Source: Methylomonas rivi
GTDB lineage: Bacteria; Pseudomonadota; Gammaproteobacteria; Methylococcales; Methylomonadaceae
Reading direction: 5' to 3'
DNA: 64,000 nt
NCBI RefSeq assembly: GCF_024505165.1
Contig: NZ_JANIBK010000006.1
Span: forward strand, 1 to 64,000
Shown: positions 4,091 through 32,679 of the stretch, piece after piece
Layout of the letters: each line of letters begins with the position of its first letter
Position numbering within the stretch: the first letter of the stretch is position 1
Translations under genes and position numbers: made by a program
Notes under the pieces: model-generated
The model's database searches: none
What the model saw: the letters and a program-made list of their open reading frames with translations, nothing else
What the model was told of the DNA's origin: nothing

Positions 4091-5165
4091 GGGGTTCCTG
4101 CTGGGCTGTGTCGTTACTGAAATCCAGATGGGTAATTTCGTCCAAAGTCGGCAATTCGTTCAACGACGTTAAATTAAAATAATCCAGAAATTGTTTGGTG
4201 GTGCCGTATAACGCCGGCCGGCCGGGTACTTCCTTATGGGCAATGACGCGTATCCATTCCCGTTCCAACAAAGTATGGATAATACCGGAACTGACGCCCA
4301 CGCCGCGAATATCCTCGATTTCGCCGCGCGTCACCGGCTGGCGGTAAGCGATGATGGAGAGGGTTTCCAGTAGGGCTCGGGAATACCGCGGCGGTTTTTC
4401 CTCGAACAAACGCGTCACCCAAGGCGCCACCCCTTCCCTGATTTGAAACCGGTAGCCGCTGGCCAACTTTTTCAGACCAATCGGGCGAGTCAGATAATCC
4501 TGCGCAATCGCTTCCAGGGCGGTCTGAATTTCCAGGGTATCCGGCTGTTCCAGTTCGGGAAAGGTTTCTTGAATTTGTTTGACCGTCATGGGTTTATTGG
4601 CGGCAAACAAAATGGCTTCTACGATGCGTTTGGTATTCACGTCGAACTCTATCGATGGCTCGGATAACGGCGGTTGGTACTCGGCAATCAGCGCCCTGCC
4701 CCAGTTGGCGCAAGGCTTATCCGCCCGATTCGCGGGCAGGCGCGCAACAGGCTTTCGCAGCGGCGCGCGCTTGGGGCGATACGGTCTGCCCTGTAATTCC
4801 ACAGTCCACACTTCGGGAAATCGGACCGCGGTTTTTCGGGCTTGCACCACAGTAATAGCCGGCGCGGGTTTGCTTCTGGGTTTACGTGGCTTAGGTTTAA
4901 CTTCCGGAACGACATTTTCTGATTCTAATGCGACTTCGGTACGAATTTCTTCAATCGCCGGTGCCGCCGTTAGCACGGATTCTGATATAAATTCCGGCGT
5001 AGGGCTCGGACTGGATGATGTCGACGATTCGCTCCTTGGAGAGTTCAAGGATGGCAAGAAACGCGACAACCACCCCGTTTTTTCCTTCACTTCCGGTAAA
5101 ACACGCTGGGAAAGGGAGCTGATTTGCTCCGTTAAGTTTTTCCAAAATGGTTGCCATTCGTTCAC
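3966..5165 (-). CDS. scpB: segregation and condensation protein ScpB with long N-terminal extension
   Basis: ScpB is the winged-helix kleisin partner of ScpA in the SMC condensin complex. The conserved fold begins near residue 178 (KRIVEAILFAANKPMTV) and includes ALLETLSIIAYRQPVTRGEI and GRPALYGTT. That leaves about 175 unusual residues in front: Ser/Pro-rich, then a strongly basic stretch. The start is uncertain because no ATG exists before the conserved core. The frame can open at GTG 5165 (which overlaps scpA by 215 bp), GTG 4976, or GTG 4640 immediately before the core. None has an obvious Shine-Dalgarno. The Gln/Glu/Thr-rich C-terminal tail overlaps rluB by 125 bp. The function is secure; the N-terminus is not. 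Confidence 0.8.
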   Translation of the reverse strand: MNEWQPFWKNLTEQISSLSQRVLPEVKEKTGWLSRFLPSLNSPRSESSTSSSPSPTPEFISESVLTAAPAIEEIRTEVALESENVVPEVKPKPRKPRSKPAPAITVVQARKTAVRFPEVWTVELQGRPYRPKRAPLRKPVARLPANRADKPCANWGRALIAEYQPPLSEPSIEFDVNTKRIVEAILFAANKPMTVKQIQETFPELEQPDTLEIQTALEAIAQDYLTRPIGLKKLASGYRFQIREGVAPWVTRLFEEKPPRYSRALLETLSIIAYRQPVTRGEIEDIRGVGVSSGIIHTLLEREWIRVIAHKEVPGRPALYGTTKQFLDYFNLTSLNELPTLDEITHLDFSNDTAQQEPRERSQTDPAETQIPRQAAEQETEPGRQAASEAGNGNIRTLH

Positions 5166-5818: not shown

Positions 5819-6478
5819 TCACAATCCGGCCAAACTGAAAAACAGTTGTTGCGCGTAATACAGCGGATACCCCAAAATCATGCCCAAGGTATTCGTCGCC
5901 AATAACACCAATAGAATCAAAAAGCCCCAGCGTTCCAGCTGGTTATAGCGCCAGGCCCAATAGTCCGGTAACAAGCCGGACAAAATGCGGCTGCCATCCA
6001 GCGGCGGAATAGGCAACATGTTGATCAAGGCCAGCACCAGATTGATGGTGATGCCGGCCACCCCGCTGTATATCAACGGCATGGAAACAAATTCCATATT
6101 GAGGGCAACCCCGATACGCGCCAACAAAGCCCAGGCGATGGCCATCAACAGATTGGACAAAGGACCCGCCAACGCCACCATCATCATGGCCTTCTTGGGG
6201 TTTTTAAAATTACGCCCATCCACCGGCACCGGTTTGGCCCAACCGAAAATAAACCCGGTAAAAGTAATTAACAATAAACCGGGCACGATAATGGTACCCA
6301 CCGGGTCAATATGCTTCAGCGGATTCAAGGTCAACCGCCCTTGCCGCTCGGCGGTTTTATCGCCGTATTGCCTGGCCACCCAGCCGTGCGCCACTTCATG
6401 CACGGTAATCGCAAAAACCACCGGCAACAGCCATACGACAATGCGCTGTATCAGCGTCAATTCGTCCATCATACTCAA
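5819..6478 (-). CDS. site-2-type membrane zinc protease (peptidase M50 family)
   Basis: The 219-residue polytopic protein has the zinc motif HEVAH (residues 27-31) in its first membrane segment and the second metal motif NMLPIPPLDGSRIL in a later one. This is the short M50B architecture without a PDZ domain (YwhC-like). It is expected to cleave membrane-embedded substrates, which are unknown here. Its start overlaps the yciO stop by 4 nt, so it is translationally coupled to it. This family commonly neighbours yciO and scpA in gammaproteobacteria, which supports the call but gives no substrate. Confidence 0.88.
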   Translation of the reverse strand: MSMMDELTLIQRIVVWLLPVVFAITVHEVAHGWVARQYGDKTAERQGRLTLNPLKHIDPVGTIIVPGLLLITFTGFIFGWAKPVPVDGRNFKNPKKAMMMVALAGPLSNLLMAIAWALLARIGVALNMEFVSMPLIYSGVAGITINLVLALINMLPIPPLDGSRILSGLLPDYWAWRYNQLERWGFLILLVLLATNTLGMILGYPLYYAQQLFFSLAGL

Positions 6479-25577: not shown

Positions 25578-26153
25578 ATGTGCAGTAAACCTGTCGAAAG
25601 TTTAGGTTTCACCCTGATCGAACTCATGGTAACGATAGCGATTGCGGCTATTTTGCTGGGCGTTGCTATACCTAGTTTTACTTCGGTCATCATCGGAAGC
25701 CGTTTGACAGCCAATACCAACGAATTCATAACTTCGCTGAATTTAGCCAGAAGCGAGGCCATCAAGCGCGGCCAGCATGTGGTGGTAAAAAAAACCGCTA
25801 CGAATTGGGAAGACGGCTGGCAAGTGTTTGTAGACATAGACCGCTCCACGAACGCCAAGGAAAACGTACTCGATGCCGGCACGGATATCGAGTTGAGAGT
25901 GTATCCGGCATTACCCACCAATATTACCCTGCGCGGTAACAACAACGTCGTTAATTTCATCCGTTACCAGCCCAACGGCACCAGCAATCAGCCGGGCAGT
26001 TTTGCCATGTGCAATGCCGGCTCGGTAACTGGGGCCAAGCTAATGATAGTCAACGCTGTCGGCCGGGTTCGCATGGCATCGGATGCCGACGATGACGGAA
26101 TCCCCGAAAAGGAAGATGGCAATGAAATTACCTCTTGCACCTCAGGTTTTTGA
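25578..26153 (+). CDS. fimT: minor pseudopilin FimT/GspH type
   Basis: The 191-residue pseudopilin has a short leader MCSKPVESLG and the class III cleavage site G/FTLIELMVTIAIAAILLG. The mature protein would begin with Phe and have Glu at position 5. The GspH/FimT-like C-domain (about residues 45-185) includes the N-terminal helix motif SLNLARSEAIKRGQHVVVKK, typical for FimT/FimU. It primes type IV pilus assembly together with PilV, PilW, PilX and PilE. It opens the operon and is followed by pilV after 3 bp. Confidence 0.92.
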   Translation: MCSKPVESLGFTLIELMVTIAIAAILLGVAIPSFTSVIIGSRLTANTNEFITSLNLARSEAIKRGQHVVVKKTATNWEDGWQVFVDIDRSTNAKENVLDAGTDIELRVYPALPTNITLRGNNNVVNFIRYQPNGTSNQPGSFAMCNAGSVTGAKLMIVNAVGRVRMASDADDDGIPEKEDGNEITSCTSGF

Positions 26154-26156
26154 TAT

Positions 26157-26603
26157 ATGAAAACGCATAAAGGCTTTACGCTAATCGAAGTGTTGGTTGC
26201 CGTAATCATATTGGCGATCGGCCTGTTGGGTTTGGCGGGCATTCAGACTGTCGGCCTAAAAAATAATCAAAGCGCTTATACGCGCAGCCAGGCAACTCAG
26301 TTAGCTTACGATATTGCCGACAGAATGCGGGCCAACGTCGCTGGCGTTACCACCTACACGACAACCGATCCTCCGGACGCCGCCGAAACGGCTGCGTGCT
26401 CAACCGCCACCGGCTGCACACCCGCCCAAATGGCGGAAACAGACCTATTTCAATGGAACGCCACTTTAACGGATGTTTTACCTGGCGGTTCCGGCACCAT
26501 CGCAGTTGCCGGAAACGTCTTTACTATAACTATTACCTGGGATGACGACCATGACGGCGATAATTCCAACAATCCCAGTTTTCAAACCAGCTTTCGACTA
26601 TGA
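26157..26603 (+). CDS. pilV: type IV pilus minor pilin PilV
   Basis: The 148-residue prepilin has leader MKTHKG and the site G/FTLIEVLVAVIILAIGLLG, then GIQTVGLKNNQSAYTRSQAT and YDIADRMRAN. The last two are characteristic of PilV. Its stop overlaps the start of the HEPN gene by 4 nt (ATGA), so the foreign-looking HEPN gene is coupled to pilV translation. Confidence 0.92.
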   Translation: MKTHKGFTLIEVLVAVIILAIGLLGLAGIQTVGLKNNQSAYTRSQATQLAYDIADRMRANVAGVTTYTTTDPPDAAETAACSTATGCTPAQMAETDLFQWNATLTDVLPGGSGTIAVAGNVFTITITWDDDHDGDNSNNPSFQTSFRL

Positions 26604-27034
26604 ATACGCCGGCCTTGCATAACATTGCGACCACGCCCGGTAACCAATATGCTTGGTTGCGCCAAAGTCTCAATGTTCAGGAAATGGCCCTGATTTTATT
26701 TGGCGCCAAAAAATGGGATGGCGCTTGTTACCACACTCAGCAAGCCTGCGAAAAAGCTTTGAAGTTCGTACTCAGCTCGGCGGGTGTTGCCTTTAGACAT
26801 ACCCATTCCGTGCATGAATTGGCAAAAGATTGTAATAAGACATTAACGCAGAAGTTGTTTGACGATGAACTAATCGACCATTTCAAAGAGCTGAGCCAAT
26901 ACACAACCATTGCTCGCTATCCGTCCTCATCGAGCGCACCTGTCGATCTCATTACGGAAAGACAGGCGCTGACCGCCATGCACACTGTCAATGAAACTTT
27001 GCTAATTTTGGAAAAACTCTATGCAACTCAATAG
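26600..27034 (+). CDS. HEPN-domain protein inserted in the pilus operon
   Basis: The 144-residue all-helical protein is of the HEPN family (PF05168-like): ILFGAKKWDGACYHTQQACE then KALKFVLSSAGV and RHTHSVHELAKDC. The C-terminal half has YTTIARYPS, the ARYP variant of the family. The RX4-6H RNase motif of HepT-type toxins is not visible. HEPN proteins are usually paired with a minimal nucleotidyltransferase (MNT), and here an MNT domain follows with a 14-nt overlap. The pair lies between pilV and pilW, where no such genes normally sit. Whether it is a toxin-antitoxin pair or a nucleotide-transfer module cannot be decided by eye. Confidence 0.82.
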   Translation: MNTPALHNIATTPGNQYAWLRQSLNVQEMALILFGAKKWDGACYHTQQACEKALKFVLSSAGVAFRHTHSVHELAKDCNKTLTQKLFDDELIDHFKELSQYTTIARYPSSSSAPVDLITERQALTAMHTVNETLLILEKLYATQ

Positions 27035-28409
27035 GCTTATACAGAGCGCAAGAGCTAAAAGACAGGCTGAGGTAATCAGCAATCTCCAGCAACGGTTTGC
27101 GGTTTTTCCCTATCCCGTCTATTTGTTCGGCTCCTTCGCCTCGGGCCAGTTTCATGGTTATTCCGATATAGACATCATGATTCTGGCCCCCAAAGAACGG
27201 ACAAAAGAAGTCTATGCCCAGGCCTGCGACAAATTGAGCGACTGGAAAACCCCCTATGACATACTCGTTTGTCAATCGGTGGCAGAGCTCGACGACACCA
27301 TCAAATCATCCCTATATCCCCTGCATCGCCCTCGGCAAACAGCCAGCGATGGCCTGCACCAGCAAGGCATGACGTTGATAGAAATTTTAATCGCCATGCT
27401 ACTGGGCATTTTTTTGCTGGCGGGCGTTTTACAAATTTTCTTAAATACCAAACAAACCTACCGCATGCAGGAGGGTTTATCCAGATTGCAGGAAAACGGC
27501 CGTTTTGCCATGGAATTTATCAGCCAGGACGTGCGGATGGCCGGTTTTTTCGGCTGTTTGAGCAATAATTTCAGCATGGCCAATGTCGAAAACGAACTCG
27601 ATGACCAAACCGATTTTGCCTGGGATATATCCAATCCTCTGATGGGTTACAACGATGTCACCAATGCTTTCACCGTGATTTCCAATGTCGTGGTCGGCAC
27701 GGATGTCATCGCCATGCGCGGCTTATTCGGCGACAACATACCGTTGATAGCGCCCTATTCGGACTCCGCCCAAATGTTTGTAGACCCCGCGTTCAATGCC
27801 GATTGCCCGGCCGCCAGCGCGAGCACCTGCCACGAAGGCGAAATTTTGATGGTAACCGACTGCACGCAAGGCACTATTTTTCAGGCCACCAACACGACGG
27901 ATATAGGCGGCGGCAGCGGCGTGAATGTGGTGCATTCCGTAAATAATACTTTTACGCCCGGCAATACCGCACCCGCAACATTTACCAAAAGTTACGGTCC
28001 CGGCGCTCAAATTGCCAGACTGAAAACCTACGCTTATTACATCAGGCTCAATCCCGGCAACCAACCGGCCTTATACCGTTCGGAATTAACCACTTCCGGC
28101 AATGCCACCAATGCCATGTCGGCGCAGGAATTGATTGAAGGCATAGAAGACATGCAAATTACTTACGGCGTGGATACCGATGCGGACGGCACGCCGAATT
28201 CCTATCTGACCGCAAACAGTATAATCGCTGCTAACTGGCCCCTGGTAGTCAGCGTCCGCATCAGTCTGCTAACCAGAACGATTGCCGACAATTTATCCGC
28301 CAACGCGGTACCTTATGACTACAACGGCGCCGATGATATAACGCCTGCGGACCGCCGCTTGCGCCGGGCCTTCACCACTACGATCGCCTTGCGAAACCGT
28401 CTGCGTTAA
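27021..28409 (+). CDS. pilW: fusion of minimal nucleotidyltransferase (MNT) and minor pilin PilW
   Basis: One uninterrupted 462-codon frame encodes two unrelated domains. Residues 1-98 are an MNT-type nucleotidyltransferase: VYLFGSFASGQ and YSDIDIMIL give an exact GSx10DxD pattern (Gly37-Ser38, Asp49, Asp51), with a third acidic Asp80 in YDILVC. From residue 112 a complete PilW follows: QQG/MTLIEILIAMLLGIFLL with the cleavage site after Gly116 and Glu at mature position 5, then QENGRFAMEFISQDVRMAGF, typical of PilW. Between them no ATG or TTG exists in frame. Possible internal starts are GTG at 27279 and CTG at 27321, neither with a clear ribosome-binding site. If translated whole, PilD cleavage would free the MNT. 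Confidence 0.85.
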   Translation: MQLNRLIQSARAKRQAEVISNLQQRFAVFPYPVYLFGSFASGQFHGYSDIDIMILAPKERTKEVYAQACDKLSDWKTPYDILVCQSVAELDDTIKSSLYPLHRPRQTASDGLHQQGMTLIEILIAMLLGIFLLAGVLQIFLNTKQTYRMQEGLSRLQENGRFAMEFISQDVRMAGFFGCLSNNFSMANVENELDDQTDFAWDISNPLMGYNDVTNAFTVISNVVVGTDVIAMRGLFGDNIPLIAPYSDSAQMFVDPAFNADCPAASASTCHEGEILMVTDCTQGTIFQATNTTDIGGGSGVNVVHSVNNTFTPGNTAPATFTKSYGPGAQIARLKTYAYYIRLNPGNQPALYRSELTTSGNATNAMSAQELIEGIEDMQITYGVDTDADGTPNSYLTANSIIAANWPLVVSVRISLLTRTIADNLSANAVPYDYNGADDITPADRRLRRAFTTTIALRNRLR

Positions 28410-28423
28410 AGGAGGAGACCGAC

Positions 28424-28954
28424 ATGCCAAACATCTCAAATAATCAAGCCGGAGCGGTACTGGTCGTGAGCTTGATCATGTTGCTGCTGCTGACCATCAT
28501 CGGCGTGTCCGGCGTACAGAGCACCTCATTGGAAGAAAAAATGGCCGGCAACAACCGGGATAGGAATTTGGCCTTTCAATCCGCAGAAGCGGCGCTGCGA
28601 GCCGGCGAGGCCAGAATCGAAACCTTGTGGAACGGCGGCACCGGCTCGATTCAGGCTTTTTGCACCGGCACGGCCGGCCAATTTTCCACCGTTGCGGGTT
28701 GCAATAACGCCCCACCCGACCCGGAAACCGCCACCACCTGGACAGACGACAACAAATCCGTTACGCATAATACGGGTAGCAGCGAAGTCGGCACGCAACC
28801 GCGCTATTTCATTACCTATGTGACCGCTTATAACCCCGGCCCACCGGTCACGCCGATCAGTTTCATCGTGACGGCCAGAGGCACCGGCGGTCAGGATGCC
28901 ACGGAAGTTATTTTGCAAAGCCATTTTGGCGGCGACTCTACGTTTCTACCTTAA
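28424..28954 (+). CDS. pilX: type IV pilus assembly protein PilX
   Basis: The 176-residue protein has the PilX N-terminal segment: a leader with Gln-Ala-Gly before AVLVVSLIMLLLLTIIGV, then GVQSTSLEEKMAGNNRDRNL and AFQSAEAALRAGE. These are highly typical of PilX. A strong AAAGGAGGAG ribosome-binding site precedes the ATG at 28424. PilX works with the other minor pilins and PilY1 to prime pilus assembly. The C-domain is short. Confidence 0.92.
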   Translation: MPNISNNQAGAVLVVSLIMLLLLTIIGVSGVQSTSLEEKMAGNNRDRNLAFQSAEAALRAGEARIETLWNGGTGSIQAFCTGTAGQFSTVAGCNNAPPDPETATTWTDDNKSVTHNTGSSEVGTQPRYFITYVTAYNPGPPVTPISFIVTARGTGGQDATEVILQSHFGGDSTFLP

Positions 28955-29004: not shown

Positions 29005-32000
29005 ATGAATACCAAGCTATCCAAATTCATTTTCTGGTCTATCGGCTTTTTAATGCCCGCTCTGGTAGCAATACCGGCGCAAGCGGCACCGGGTATACTG
29101 GCCAATTCTCCATTGTTCACCATGAGCAACGTACCCCCCAATGTCTTCTTCGAACTGGACGATTCGGGTTCGATGGATTGGGAGATCCTGACTAAAAACT
29201 ATTGGCACGCCTGCGCATACGATAGGGATAGCCCGGGTAACACTGGCAGTACCGATTGCGGCGGCGTATTAAACGACGGCTTGATAAGAATTTATTCCGG
29301 TACCGCCTTTCGCAGCTATGCCTACATATTCGACAATGACGACAATCTCTACAACAACGGTTGTAATGCGGATGACTATCCGAAATTGGAAAATTGCGTT
29401 TCCGATGTGCGTAATTATGAGTGGCGGGTTCGTTCATCCGACCTAAATGTGCTGTATTACAACCCAAACATCACTTATTTACCATGGCAGAACGGCGACG
29501 GCACCGCCATGCCGGACGCCAGCTTCACGTCGGTCAGAAGCAACCCCAAAAGCGGCGAATCCGGCTACGACGACACCAAAAACCTGACCGGTTTTATATT
29601 TGAAGTCTGGTCTGACACTCACGGCTACAACGGTACCCGCCCCAATCGCGGCACCAACATCGATAGAACCGTCGGCGCCAATGGCCTAATGGATTATTGG
29701 GACGAACATACCCGCTATACCGTCAATGCCACCTCAATCACCAGGGATGTCATCACGTATTCCCCAACCGCCAACGGCACCAATAAAGGCCGGCTGAATG
29801 CGTCGGCGGCCTCCACTACCCTGACAACCGGCCTGAACGGCCGCACCCTGGCCGAGGAAAAACAAAACATTGCCAACTGGTATCAATATTCCCGCCGCCG
29901 CTCGTTCGTCGCTAAAGGCTCCATTGCCAAGGTCATATCGGAAAAACCCAGCTTTCGCTACGGTTTGAACACGATCAACAGCAGTACGTTTTTTACCGAA
30001 GTACCGGATTTAGACGCTAATTTTGCCTCTCACAACTCAACCCTTATTAGCGATTTATTTAGCTTCAACTGGCCCGAGTCGAGCACTCCGCTGCGGCGCG
30101 GACTGGAACGGGTCGGTAAATACTTCGACAACACAGACGATAGGACCGATCCTATTGTTCAAGAATGCCAGCAAAACTTTGCCCTGTTACTGACCGATGG
30201 CTATTGGAACGGCAGCAATCCCGCCACGGCCATAGGCGATGCGGACGACGACGGCCACAGCCGAACCCTGGCGGACGTTGCAAGATACTATTACACCCGC
30301 GATTTAAGCCCCTTGGCCGATAACGTACCCAACAGCGTGTTCGATACCGTCAATCATCAACACATGGTTACTTTTGGAGTTGCCTTCGGTTTAAGCGGGT
30401 TATTAACCGACGCCGATGGCGACGGCTGGCCGGGCACGGCACCGGGCTTGGCCGAAGATGATGACTGGGGAGACCCATTCGATAGCGATCCGGAAAAAAT
30501 AGACGATCTCTGGCACGCCGCTTACAACGGCCGCGGCGCTTTCGTCTCGGCTTCGTCGCCGGAAGCTGTTAACTCGGCATTGACCACGGCGCTGGCCAGT
30601 ATTGGCGACCGCTCGGGAAGTGCCGCCTCGGTTTCTTTCAACACCACCACTTTAACCGGCTCCAGCGCGGTTTTTTTGGCCCAATTCAACAATCTGAACA
30701 ACAAATGGAGCGGCGACCTGCTGGCTTTTGCCCTCAACACCACAAACGGGGATGTGGCCACAACCCAAAGTTGGTCTGTCAATGGCAATCCCGCGGGGGC
30801 CGCGGATATTTTGGACAACCGCGCCAATCCGGTAACGACACGTACCATCCTGACCCACGACGGCGGCGATGGCATTCCTTTTCAATGGGCTAATCTGACA
30901 ACCGCGCAGAGGAACGATCTATTAACCGATCCCAACGGCACCCTTGGCACCGATGATGCCAAAGGGCAGGCGCGCCTAAATTATCTGCGTGGCGATAGAA
31001 GCAACGAACAAAGCCTAAACGGTACTTATAGCTTTAGGGACCGTAGCAAATTGCTCGGCGATATTGTCAATTCCGATCCTGTTTTCGTGGGCTCGCCGCG
31101 TTCCGCATGGCCGGATAGTGCGCCATTTCCAATCACAACCGGAAACAAATATAGCGATTTTGCCGCCAACAATATAAACCGCGCCGAAATGGTCTATCTA
31201 GGCGCCAACGATGGCATGCTGCACGGGTTTTCGGCCGCCGACGGCAGCGAAACCCTTGCATACATACCGGGTAATTTATTCAGTTCGGGCGACCCTCTCA
31301 ACGGATTGCATTATTTAACCGACCCTGCCTACACGCATCGTTTCTACGTTGACTTGGCTTCGGCCGTTGAAGATGTGTATATCAATACCGGTACGGGCAC
31401 GTATTGGCATACCGTTTTAGTCGGCGGAGAACGCGCCGGCGGCAAAGGCGTATTCGCGCTGGATATCACTAACCCAGCAACGTTTTCCGAAGCCAATGCC
31501 AGCCAAATTGCGTTATGGGAATTCACCAACAACAATGATGCCGACTTGGGCTTTTCCTTCAGCAAACCCAGTATCGGCCTGATGCCGAACGGCCGCTGGG
31601 CCGCCATTATAGGCAACGGTTATAACAATACCGGGGACGGACAAGCCAAGTTATTTATTTTGTTTCTAGACGGCGGCTTGGATGGCGTCTGGACTCCAGG
31701 TACGGACTATATCGAAATAAGCACAGGCATAGGCAGCATCGTCAACAACGACTGTATCGACCCGACCAGCGATTGCAATGGTTTGTCCACTCCGCTTGCC
31801 GCCGACATAACCGGCGATCACGTTATCGACAGGATTTATGCGGGCGATTTAAAAGGCAATATGTGGGCGTTCGATGTATCTAACTCATCTGCCGCTAATT
31901 GGACCGTGGCTTATTCCGGGCAACCATTGTTCATCGCCGGCAAGCCAATTACTAGTAAACCGGCATTGGTAACCCATCCCTCGCAACCAAATGGCATAGC

Positions 32001-32679
32001 ACCTAACGTACTGGTATTTTTCGGCACTGGACAATATTTGGTCGACACCGACGTGACTAACACCGACGTTCAAGCCTTTTATGGCGTTTGGGATCATGGC
32101 ACGGCCGCTATCACCTCGGCGCAGTTGGTCGAACAAACGTTTCTATCCAATACGTTCACCAATAACGGCGTCAACGTTTCCAACCGGTTTACCGTATTGA
32201 CCAACAACACGGTCGACTATGCTACTAAACACGGTTGGTTTATCAGATTGACGCAAAATACCGGCGAACGAGTGATTGTCGATCCCGATGTCTTCGGAGA
32301 TTTTCTGTTCTTCAATACCTGGATCCCGGAAAACACGGTTTGCAGCGCGGGCGGCTCCGGGGTGTTAATGTCTATCGATCTTGTAACCGGAGGCAGACCT
32401 GAAATTGCCCCATTCGACCTGAATGGCGATAATACAATCGACAGTACCGACCTGTTGCTCTCGGGGAGTTCAACTTACGCCGCAACCGGTCAAATATTTA
32501 CGCGCGGCTTGCCCGCCTCTTCAAGTTTCTTAACGGATTACCAATACACCCCGGGAACAAGCGGCGGTTCAACTATAGAGAAGCGTAGGGTCAGGCCACC
32601 TGCCCCACCACCAACTCCAACGCCTCCTACACCTTTATCGAACATGAAAAGAAACTCATGGCAAGAAATACGCCATTAA
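29005..32679 (+). CDS. pilY1: type IV pilus tip adhesin/assembly protein PilY1
   Basis: The 1224-residue secreted protein has a signal peptide (cleavage near ALVAIPAQA/A). A vWA-like region follows with MIDAS motif LDDSGSMDW (Asp52, Ser54, Ser56) and further LLTDGYWNG. The C-terminal PilY1 beta-propeller begins near residue 690 (VYLGANDGMLHGFSAADG) and includes GRWAAIIGNGYNNTGDGQAK. A calcium-binding-type loop DITGDHVIDRIYAGDLKGN lies in the propeller, as in PilY1 proteins that control pilus retraction. A second Asp-rich loop, DLNGDNTIDSTDLL, lies near the C-terminus. The last 30 residues are Pro/Thr-rich. It follows pilX in the operon. Confidence 0.93.
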   Translation: MNTKLSKFIFWSIGFLMPALVAIPAQAAPGILANSPLFTMSNVPPNVFFELDDSGSMDWEILTKNYWHACAYDRDSPGNTGSTDCGGVLNDGLIRIYSGTAFRSYAYIFDNDDNLYNNGCNADDYPKLENCVSDVRNYEWRVRSSDLNVLYYNPNITYLPWQNGDGTAMPDASFTSVRSNPKSGESGYDDTKNLTGFIFEVWSDTHGYNGTRPNRGTNIDRTVGANGLMDYWDEHTRYTVNATSITRDVITYSPTANGTNKGRLNASAASTTLTTGLNGRTLAEEKQNIANWYQYSRRRSFVAKGSIAKVISEKPSFRYGLNTINSSTFFTEVPDLDANFASHNSTLISDLFSFNWPESSTPLRRGLERVGKYFDNTDDRTDPIVQECQQNFALLLTDGYWNGSNPATAIGDADDDGHSRTLADVARYYYTRDLSPLADNVPNSVFDTVNHQHMVTFGVAFGLSGLLTDADGDGWPGTAPGLAEDDDWGDPFDSDPEKIDDLWHAAYNGRGAFVSASSPEAVNSALTTALASIGDRSGSAASVSFNTTTLTGSSAVFLAQFNNLNNKWSGDLLAFALNTTNGDVATTQSWSVNGNPAGAADILDNRANPVTTRTILTHDGGDGIPFQWANLTTAQRNDLLTDPNGTLGTDDAKGQARLNYLRGDRSNEQSLNGTYSFRDRSKLLGDIVNSDPVFVGSPRSAWPDSAPFPITTGNKYSDFAANNINRAEMVYLGANDGMLHGFSAADGSETLAYIPGNLFSSGDPLNGLHYLTDPAYTHRFYVDLASAVEDVYINTGTGTYWHTVLVGGERAGGKGVFALDITNPATFSEANASQIALWEFTNNNDADLGFSFSKPSIGLMPNGRWAAIIGNGYNNTGDGQAKLFILFLDGGLDGVWTPGTDYIEISTGIGSIVNNDCIDPTSDCNGLSTPLAADITGDHVIDRIYAGDLKGNMWAFDVSNSSAANWTVAYSGQPLFIAGKPITSKPALVTHPSQPNGIAPNVLVFFGTGQYLVDTDVTNTDVQAFYGVWDHGTAAITSAQLVEQTFLSNTFTNNGVNVSNRFTVLTNNTVDYATKHGWFIRLTQNTGERVIVDPDVFGDFLFFNTWIPENTVCSAGGSGVLMSIDLVTGGRPEIAPFDLNGDNTIDSTDLLLSGSSTYAATGQIFTRGLPASSSFLTDYQYTPGTSGGSTIEKRRVRPPAPPPTPTPPTPLSNMKRNSWQEIRH

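Follow-up and report, generated by a model that had tools for sequence, protein, structure and literature searches.

The window, the whole 64,000-nucleotide stretch of Methylomonas rivi DNA that we analyzed, carries a minor-pilin operon in which a HEPN gene and a minimal nucleotidyltransferase (MNT) domain lie ahead of PilW. The features are as follows.

25578 to 26153, forward strand: minor prepilin gene of the gspH/fimU type, upstream in the same operon (Pfam GspH and N_methyl; synteny in relatives).
26157 to 26603, forward strand: pilV, a minor prepilin gene whose stop codon overlaps the HEPN start codon as ATGA (NCBIfam TIGR02523, 101.2 bits against a cut-off of 52.2).
26600 to 27034, forward strand: HEPN gene of the PF05168 type, 144 aa, overlapping the fused gene by 14 nt (Pfam HEPN, 70.8 bits against a cut-off of 22; full-length relatives).
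27021 to 27326, forward strand: MNT domain, residues 1 to 102 of the fused gene, with GSx10DxD at 37 to 51 and D80 (Pfam NTP_transf_2; alignment with stand-alone MNTs; structure model).
27327 to 27368, forward strand: linker of 14 residues (103 to 116), ending in Gly-1 of the prepilin site (alignment; structure model).
27369 to 28409, forward strand: mature PilW, 346 aa, with the stop codon (Pfam N_methyl and PilW; sole PilW match in the genome).
28424 to 28954, forward strand: pilX, downstream (Pfam PilX_N and PilX).
29005 to 32679, forward strand: pilY1, downstream (Pfam T4P_PilY1).

The two overlaps, between pilV and the HEPN gene and between the HEPN gene and the fused gene, suggest translational coupling. 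Together, the HEPN gene and the MNT make up a class II HEPN/MNT module that sits inside the minor-pilin operon. The HEPN gene precedes the MNT in this window, the reverse of the order described as usual.

One reading frame for MNT and PilW

Reading the sequence for open frames gave a single frame of 462 codons, from ATG to stop, at 27021 to 28409. It occupies the place of pilW between pilV and pilX, with the HEPN gene intervening after pilV, and a search of its own genome found it once, without stops. The encoded protein matches Pfam NTP_transf_2 over residues 20 to 87 (36.5 bits; cut-off 21), N_methyl over residues 113 to 137 (21.2 bits, exactly the cut-off), and the PilW domain, PF16074, over residues 338 to 459 (112.6 bits; cut-off 26). 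In the MNT part, GS at 37 and 38 is followed exactly 10 residues on by D49 and D51, with D80 as the third aspartate. The prepilin site reads QQG/MTLIE, with the cut between G116 and M117 and Glu+5 at E121. The original prediction placed a complete MNT and a complete PilW in one frame with a cleavage site at this position; sequence, Pfam, and alignment all confirm it. A structure model of the fused protein has an MNT domain (pLDDT 72 to 87 at residues 11 to 100), a disordered linker (below 50 at 105 to 119), and then the pilin helix; the model was built on five sequences, has a mean pLDDT of 63.4, and is poor in the PilW part. A fold search with it returned nothing at E 0.001 or better, the best value being 1.1e-3, with HI0073 and HEPN-MNT structures leading. 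The genome also contains a PilD family match.

The fusion in related genomes

The same in-frame MNT-PilW arrangement occurs in 5 of the 237 family genomes that we searched across 29 genera. These five, from three genera, are the genome of the window (G000), a Methylomonas MAG (G022), Methylomonas sp. SURF-2 (G036, an independent isolate record), a Methylococcaceae MAG (G047), and a Methylovulum MAG (G173). The last four are separate records with 44 to 65% protein identity. At the genus level, three of 37 genomes have the full frame (G000, G022, and G036) and one, G010, has a remnant. A Methylobacter MAG, G065, has its MNT fused to PilV, not PilW, and Gly-1 and Glu+5 are kept in this fusion as well as in all five PilW fusions. 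The fused gene or its counterpart is the only PilW match in each of the seven genomes checked for this, five of which carry the fusion. Another genome, G016, has two PilW matches of equal score and identity (G016:C1:1445607-1446635 and 2765387-2766415).

The PilV fusion of G065 (locus L085, 3285 to 4169 in reverse strand coordinates) is in frame and follows a truncated gspH. Its linker starts with ISAT, like the linkers of G047 and G173, which hints at recombination between prepilin genes.

With a threshold of E 1e-8, the order-level search of 311 genomes gave 13 with this MNT clade, all except one of them in the same family as the window. Nine of the 13 have the MNT in the minor-pilin operon: five as PilW fusions, one as the PilV fusion, and three near the operon head (G130, G170, and G176), where unfused HEPN/MNT pairs or remains of pairs lie upstream of gspH. 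No minor-pilin operon was found around the MNT of the other four (G103, G158, G159, and G273); near those of G158 and G159 there is just a weak PilV-like match, at 30% identity, in an opposite-strand frame. One single clean insertion is unsupported as such, given modules both at the operon head and elsewhere. In G170 (locus L090, 2560 to 2790 in reverse strand coordinates), the MNT upstream of gspH is followed by an apparent frameshifted remnant of the PilW N terminus.

At the class level (369 genomes), we found, besides G000 and G159, three weak matches only (E 1e-7 to 6e-7), in long frames. The family search gave five more weak MNT matches, in G069, G144, G147, G179, and G190 (E 1.5e-4 to 8.7e-4). 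Three loci in viral contigs, at 29 to 36% identity, fall outside this MNT clade, and PADLOC returned weak candidate-system matches only.

In a PilV tree of 111 rows, a single 86-row group, whose support of 90/87 is not firm, contains 17 of the 18 labelled operons, and G065 stands outside on a long branch; the order of the module sites was not resolved in this tree. The MNT tree has two groups, with only the Methylomonas trio well supported, and the MNT-PilW fusion occurs in two MNT clades.

State of the HEPN and MNT genes

HEPN matches were found in 9 of the 237 family genomes. Seven are intact, the one in G173 has an internal deletion, and the one in G170 has a stop and a frameshift. Adding G273, from another family, brings the intact HEPNs to eight, and each adjoins an MNT with GSx10DxD, the third Asp being Asp in seven and Glu in G273. 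Of the 12 aligned MNTs, all have GSx10DxD and 11 have the third Asp; G173, which lacks it, has a broken HEPN. In an alignment of eight HEPN sequences, read by eye, Y101, Y107, and the R66-x5-H72 pair are each present in seven.

Pairwise comparison of MNTs gave dN and dS of 0.29 and 1.88 (G000-G022), 0.27 and 1.17 (G000-G036), and 0.18 and 0.73 (G047-G065); for PilW, the G000-G022 values were 0.25 and 2.03. Where dS is finite and above 0.5, MNT dN/dS is about 0.15 to 0.3, a rough ratio since dS is high to saturated. Judged by these substitution rates, the MNT is under purifying selection. The MNT is complete in G022, G065, and G158, though an HEPN match is absent, and the MNTs of G022 and G065, with full GSx10DxD, diverge no faster than their relatives. 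An intact MNT in these three genomes is not required by a plain decay story.

Remnants of the module in PilW leaders

The PilW leader is 19 aa or shorter in 100 of 121 survey rows, among the matches listed and not every PilW of the family, versus 116 to 171 aa in the five fusions. The survey returned 121 rows for 122 loci asked, with locus G189 counted twice. HEPN and MNT profiles were then run over three frames of the 18 pilV-pilW intervals of at least 113 nt outside the five fusions. As a control, each interval was shuffled 200 times within 30-base blocks, a shuffle that is not dinucleotide-preserving. For 11 of the 18 intervals, no more than one shuffle in 200 attained the observed score: none for G010, G189, G177, G080, G043, G127, G056, and G079, and one for G130, G070, and G160. 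The statistics of G130 and G070 are therefore weak. The remaining seven intervals gave no HEPN/MNT signal. We set G160 aside as likely chance, its HEPN score being 4.6 bits, out of frame, and absent in the sister genome G162. This leaves 10 further genomes with traces of the module between pilV and pilW.

The scoring stretch lies in the PilW frame in G010, G189, G177, G080, G043, G127, G130, and G070. In G079, the significant stretch is an HEPN tail in another frame, and an in-frame MNT head, very like the one in the sister genome G080, reaches just 10/200. In G056, PilW begins at a different ATG, out of frame with the remnant. By inspection, the PilW frame holds 9 of the 10 remnants, G079 among them (a probability of 0.0004 if one in three is expected by chance), and a strict count of 8 of 11 gives about 0.009 by hand calculation. 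The in-frame leaders were first noticed by inspection, before the remnant statistics. A single ancestral event may also underlie both fusions and remnants, which would make them less than fully independent and the independent cases fewer. On a plain reading of these sequences, translation of PilW in the remnant genomes would begin at the start codon of HEPN or of MNT.

Two of these loci have further features. In G177 (locus L094, 2651 to 2902), the PilW leader consists of an HEPN head and a stretch resembling a short palindromic repeat in multiple copies (SHAPAWE and its other frames), in the PilW frame. G130 (locus L087) keeps an intact HEPN-MNT pair, not fused, at the head of the operon (4199 to 4525 and 5879 to 6004 are the coordinates at this locus), and the PilW leader of the same operon resembles an MNT tail.

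The claim that the prepilin leader in the window is a complete MNT domain is supported by the four other fusions, the sole PilW match in the genome, and the module remnants that other genomes have in the PilW frame. The fusion is thus a genuine one: several genera conserve it, and it is of sufficient age that it has decayed elsewhere. It is an unusual arrangement, common to several species, with traces in others.

Discussion

We consider it probable that, in methanotrophs of the Methylomonadaceae type, a class II HEPN/MNT gene pair entered the minor-pilin operon between pilV and pilW and that PilW is made as an MNT-linker-prepilin precursor, from which prepilin peptidase would free the MNT. 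The MNT frame would have run on into pilW, leaving pilW without a start of its own. The open frame, its conservation, and the in-frame remnant leaders are observed, and they point to translation of the precursor from the MNT start codon. The hydrophobic N_methyl helix would keep the MNT domain on the cytoplasmic side, where prepilin peptidase should cut after G116 and give a free MNT of about 116 residues. The freed MNT could then have the product of the adjacent upstream HEPN gene as its target. PilD cleavage of the precursor, release of active MNT, and modification of HEPN are inferences from what is generally known of prepilins and of class I HEPN/MNT pairs. Once HEPN decays, the MNT would no longer be needed and could shrink, while the start codon and the frame would be kept because PilW depends on them. 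This dependence of PilW on the module start is well supported by the sequence comparisons.

Could the fusion instead have been selected for its function? Pilus biogenesis would then be coupled to MNT supply: the MNT would be tethered to the membrane as the PilW leader and freed only when PilD processes the pilin, HEPN activity would report on pilus assembly, and loss of pilW or PilD would cost the cell its MNT. We regard this as rather unlikely. It fits with the operon location in 9 of the 13 genomes that have this MNT clade, with MNT fusions to PilV (G065) as well as to PilW, the latter in two MNT clades, and with the full MNTs that G022 and G065 keep without HEPN and that diverge no faster than their relatives. 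Against this, nine remnant genomes tolerate decayed leaders, three genomes have an unfused pair or its remains at the operon head and four have it elsewhere, and shared descent may account for the association. Since lineages with wholly or partly decayed leaders keep PilW, the enzyme is not needed for PilW. That pilus assembly might regulate nucleotidyl transfer is an attractive possibility.

Less likely still is that internal initiation, at the GTG at 27279 or at a non-standard codon, makes most of the PilW, the MNT then being a by-product that either ends in PilW or undergoes degradation. According to the original prediction, no ATG or TTG lies between the MNT and PilW. M117 itself is an ATG, however, and the GTG (27279, V87) lies in frame 30 codons before the prepilin site. 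In G000, this GTG at codon 87 and a TTG at codon 72 are the standard starts nearest to the site on its upstream side in this frame, neither of them with good Shine-Dalgarno pairing. As M117 is residue +1, a start there would drop Gly-1. Estimated Shine-Dalgarno duplexes (kcal/mol) were -2.5 for TTG 72, +1.2 for GTG 87, and -3.3 for the MNT start. GTG is also present at codon 87 in G036, with a similarly poor pairing of +0.7. Since the values for known starts of the operon vary from +0.4 to -11.6, pairing alone is not decisive. G022 alone among the five fusions has a good local start candidate, an ATG seven codons ahead of the site; within 25 codons of the site, no start codon is common to all five PilW fusions. 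It had also been suggested that the CTG at 27321 is the lost pilW ATG. We reject this, because the codon (L101) aligns with the natural C-terminal tail of stand-alone MNTs (SLQAIHEP-stop in G130). The in-frame remnants elsewhere, the fusion in four other genomes, and the sole PilW match argue instead that PilW is most likely translated from the start codon of the module, with the MNT as its leader.

The suspicion that a sequencing or assembly error hides a stop, or that the frame is open by chance, has next to nothing left in its favor beyond an own genome in 382 contigs: the frame has no stops there, and its presence in the separate records of G022, G036, G047, and G173 rules out assembly error and already refutes this explanation.

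If a folded enzyme does serve as a prepilin leader, this would widen the substrate range of prepilin peptidase and link pilus biogenesis to a toxin-antitoxin-like module. The remnants grade from the intact module down to a shortened leader, a series in which one can see how a mobile gene pair can make a host gene dependent on its start codon.

Comparison with known systems

Class II HEPN/MNT modules are defined by PF05168 and PF01909 (PMC7641770), and the available text of that paper describes them as biochemically untested. The module in the window is like them in having a PF05168 HEPN beside a GSx10DxD MNT. It differs in gene order, the HEPN gene being first here whereas the MNT gene is first almost always in such pairs according to the text available from PMC3710099. 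It also differs in the fusion of MNT to a prepilin, which goes unmentioned in the available portions of PMC3710099 and PMC7641770. Among open-licence papers, our search found none that describes a pilin fusion of MNT or HEPN.

In class I pairs, MntA adenylylates HepT, as given in the available text of PMC7641770. The MNT of the window shares the MNT fold and GSx10DxD with this type VII toxin-antitoxin system, and MntA is its best PDB sequence match (5yep, E 1.4e-7). However, the HEPN here is PF05168, not DUF86/PF01934, and appears to lack the RX4HXY motif, and the match to type VII MntA (NCBIfam NF047752) is below threshold, at 27 bits against a cut-off of 60.

Modular type IV pilins, such as PilB and PilC of Streptococcus sanguinis, likewise join a non-pilin domain to a minor pilin (PMC10191384, available text). 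Their extra domain is in the exported part, whereas here it is predicted to be on the cytoplasmic, cleaved side; prepilin leaders remain in the cytoplasm and are cut there by prepilin peptidase, according to the same text. Pilin leaders of S. sanguinis are 8 to 18 aa long in the available text of PMC6497953, compared with 116 aa here.
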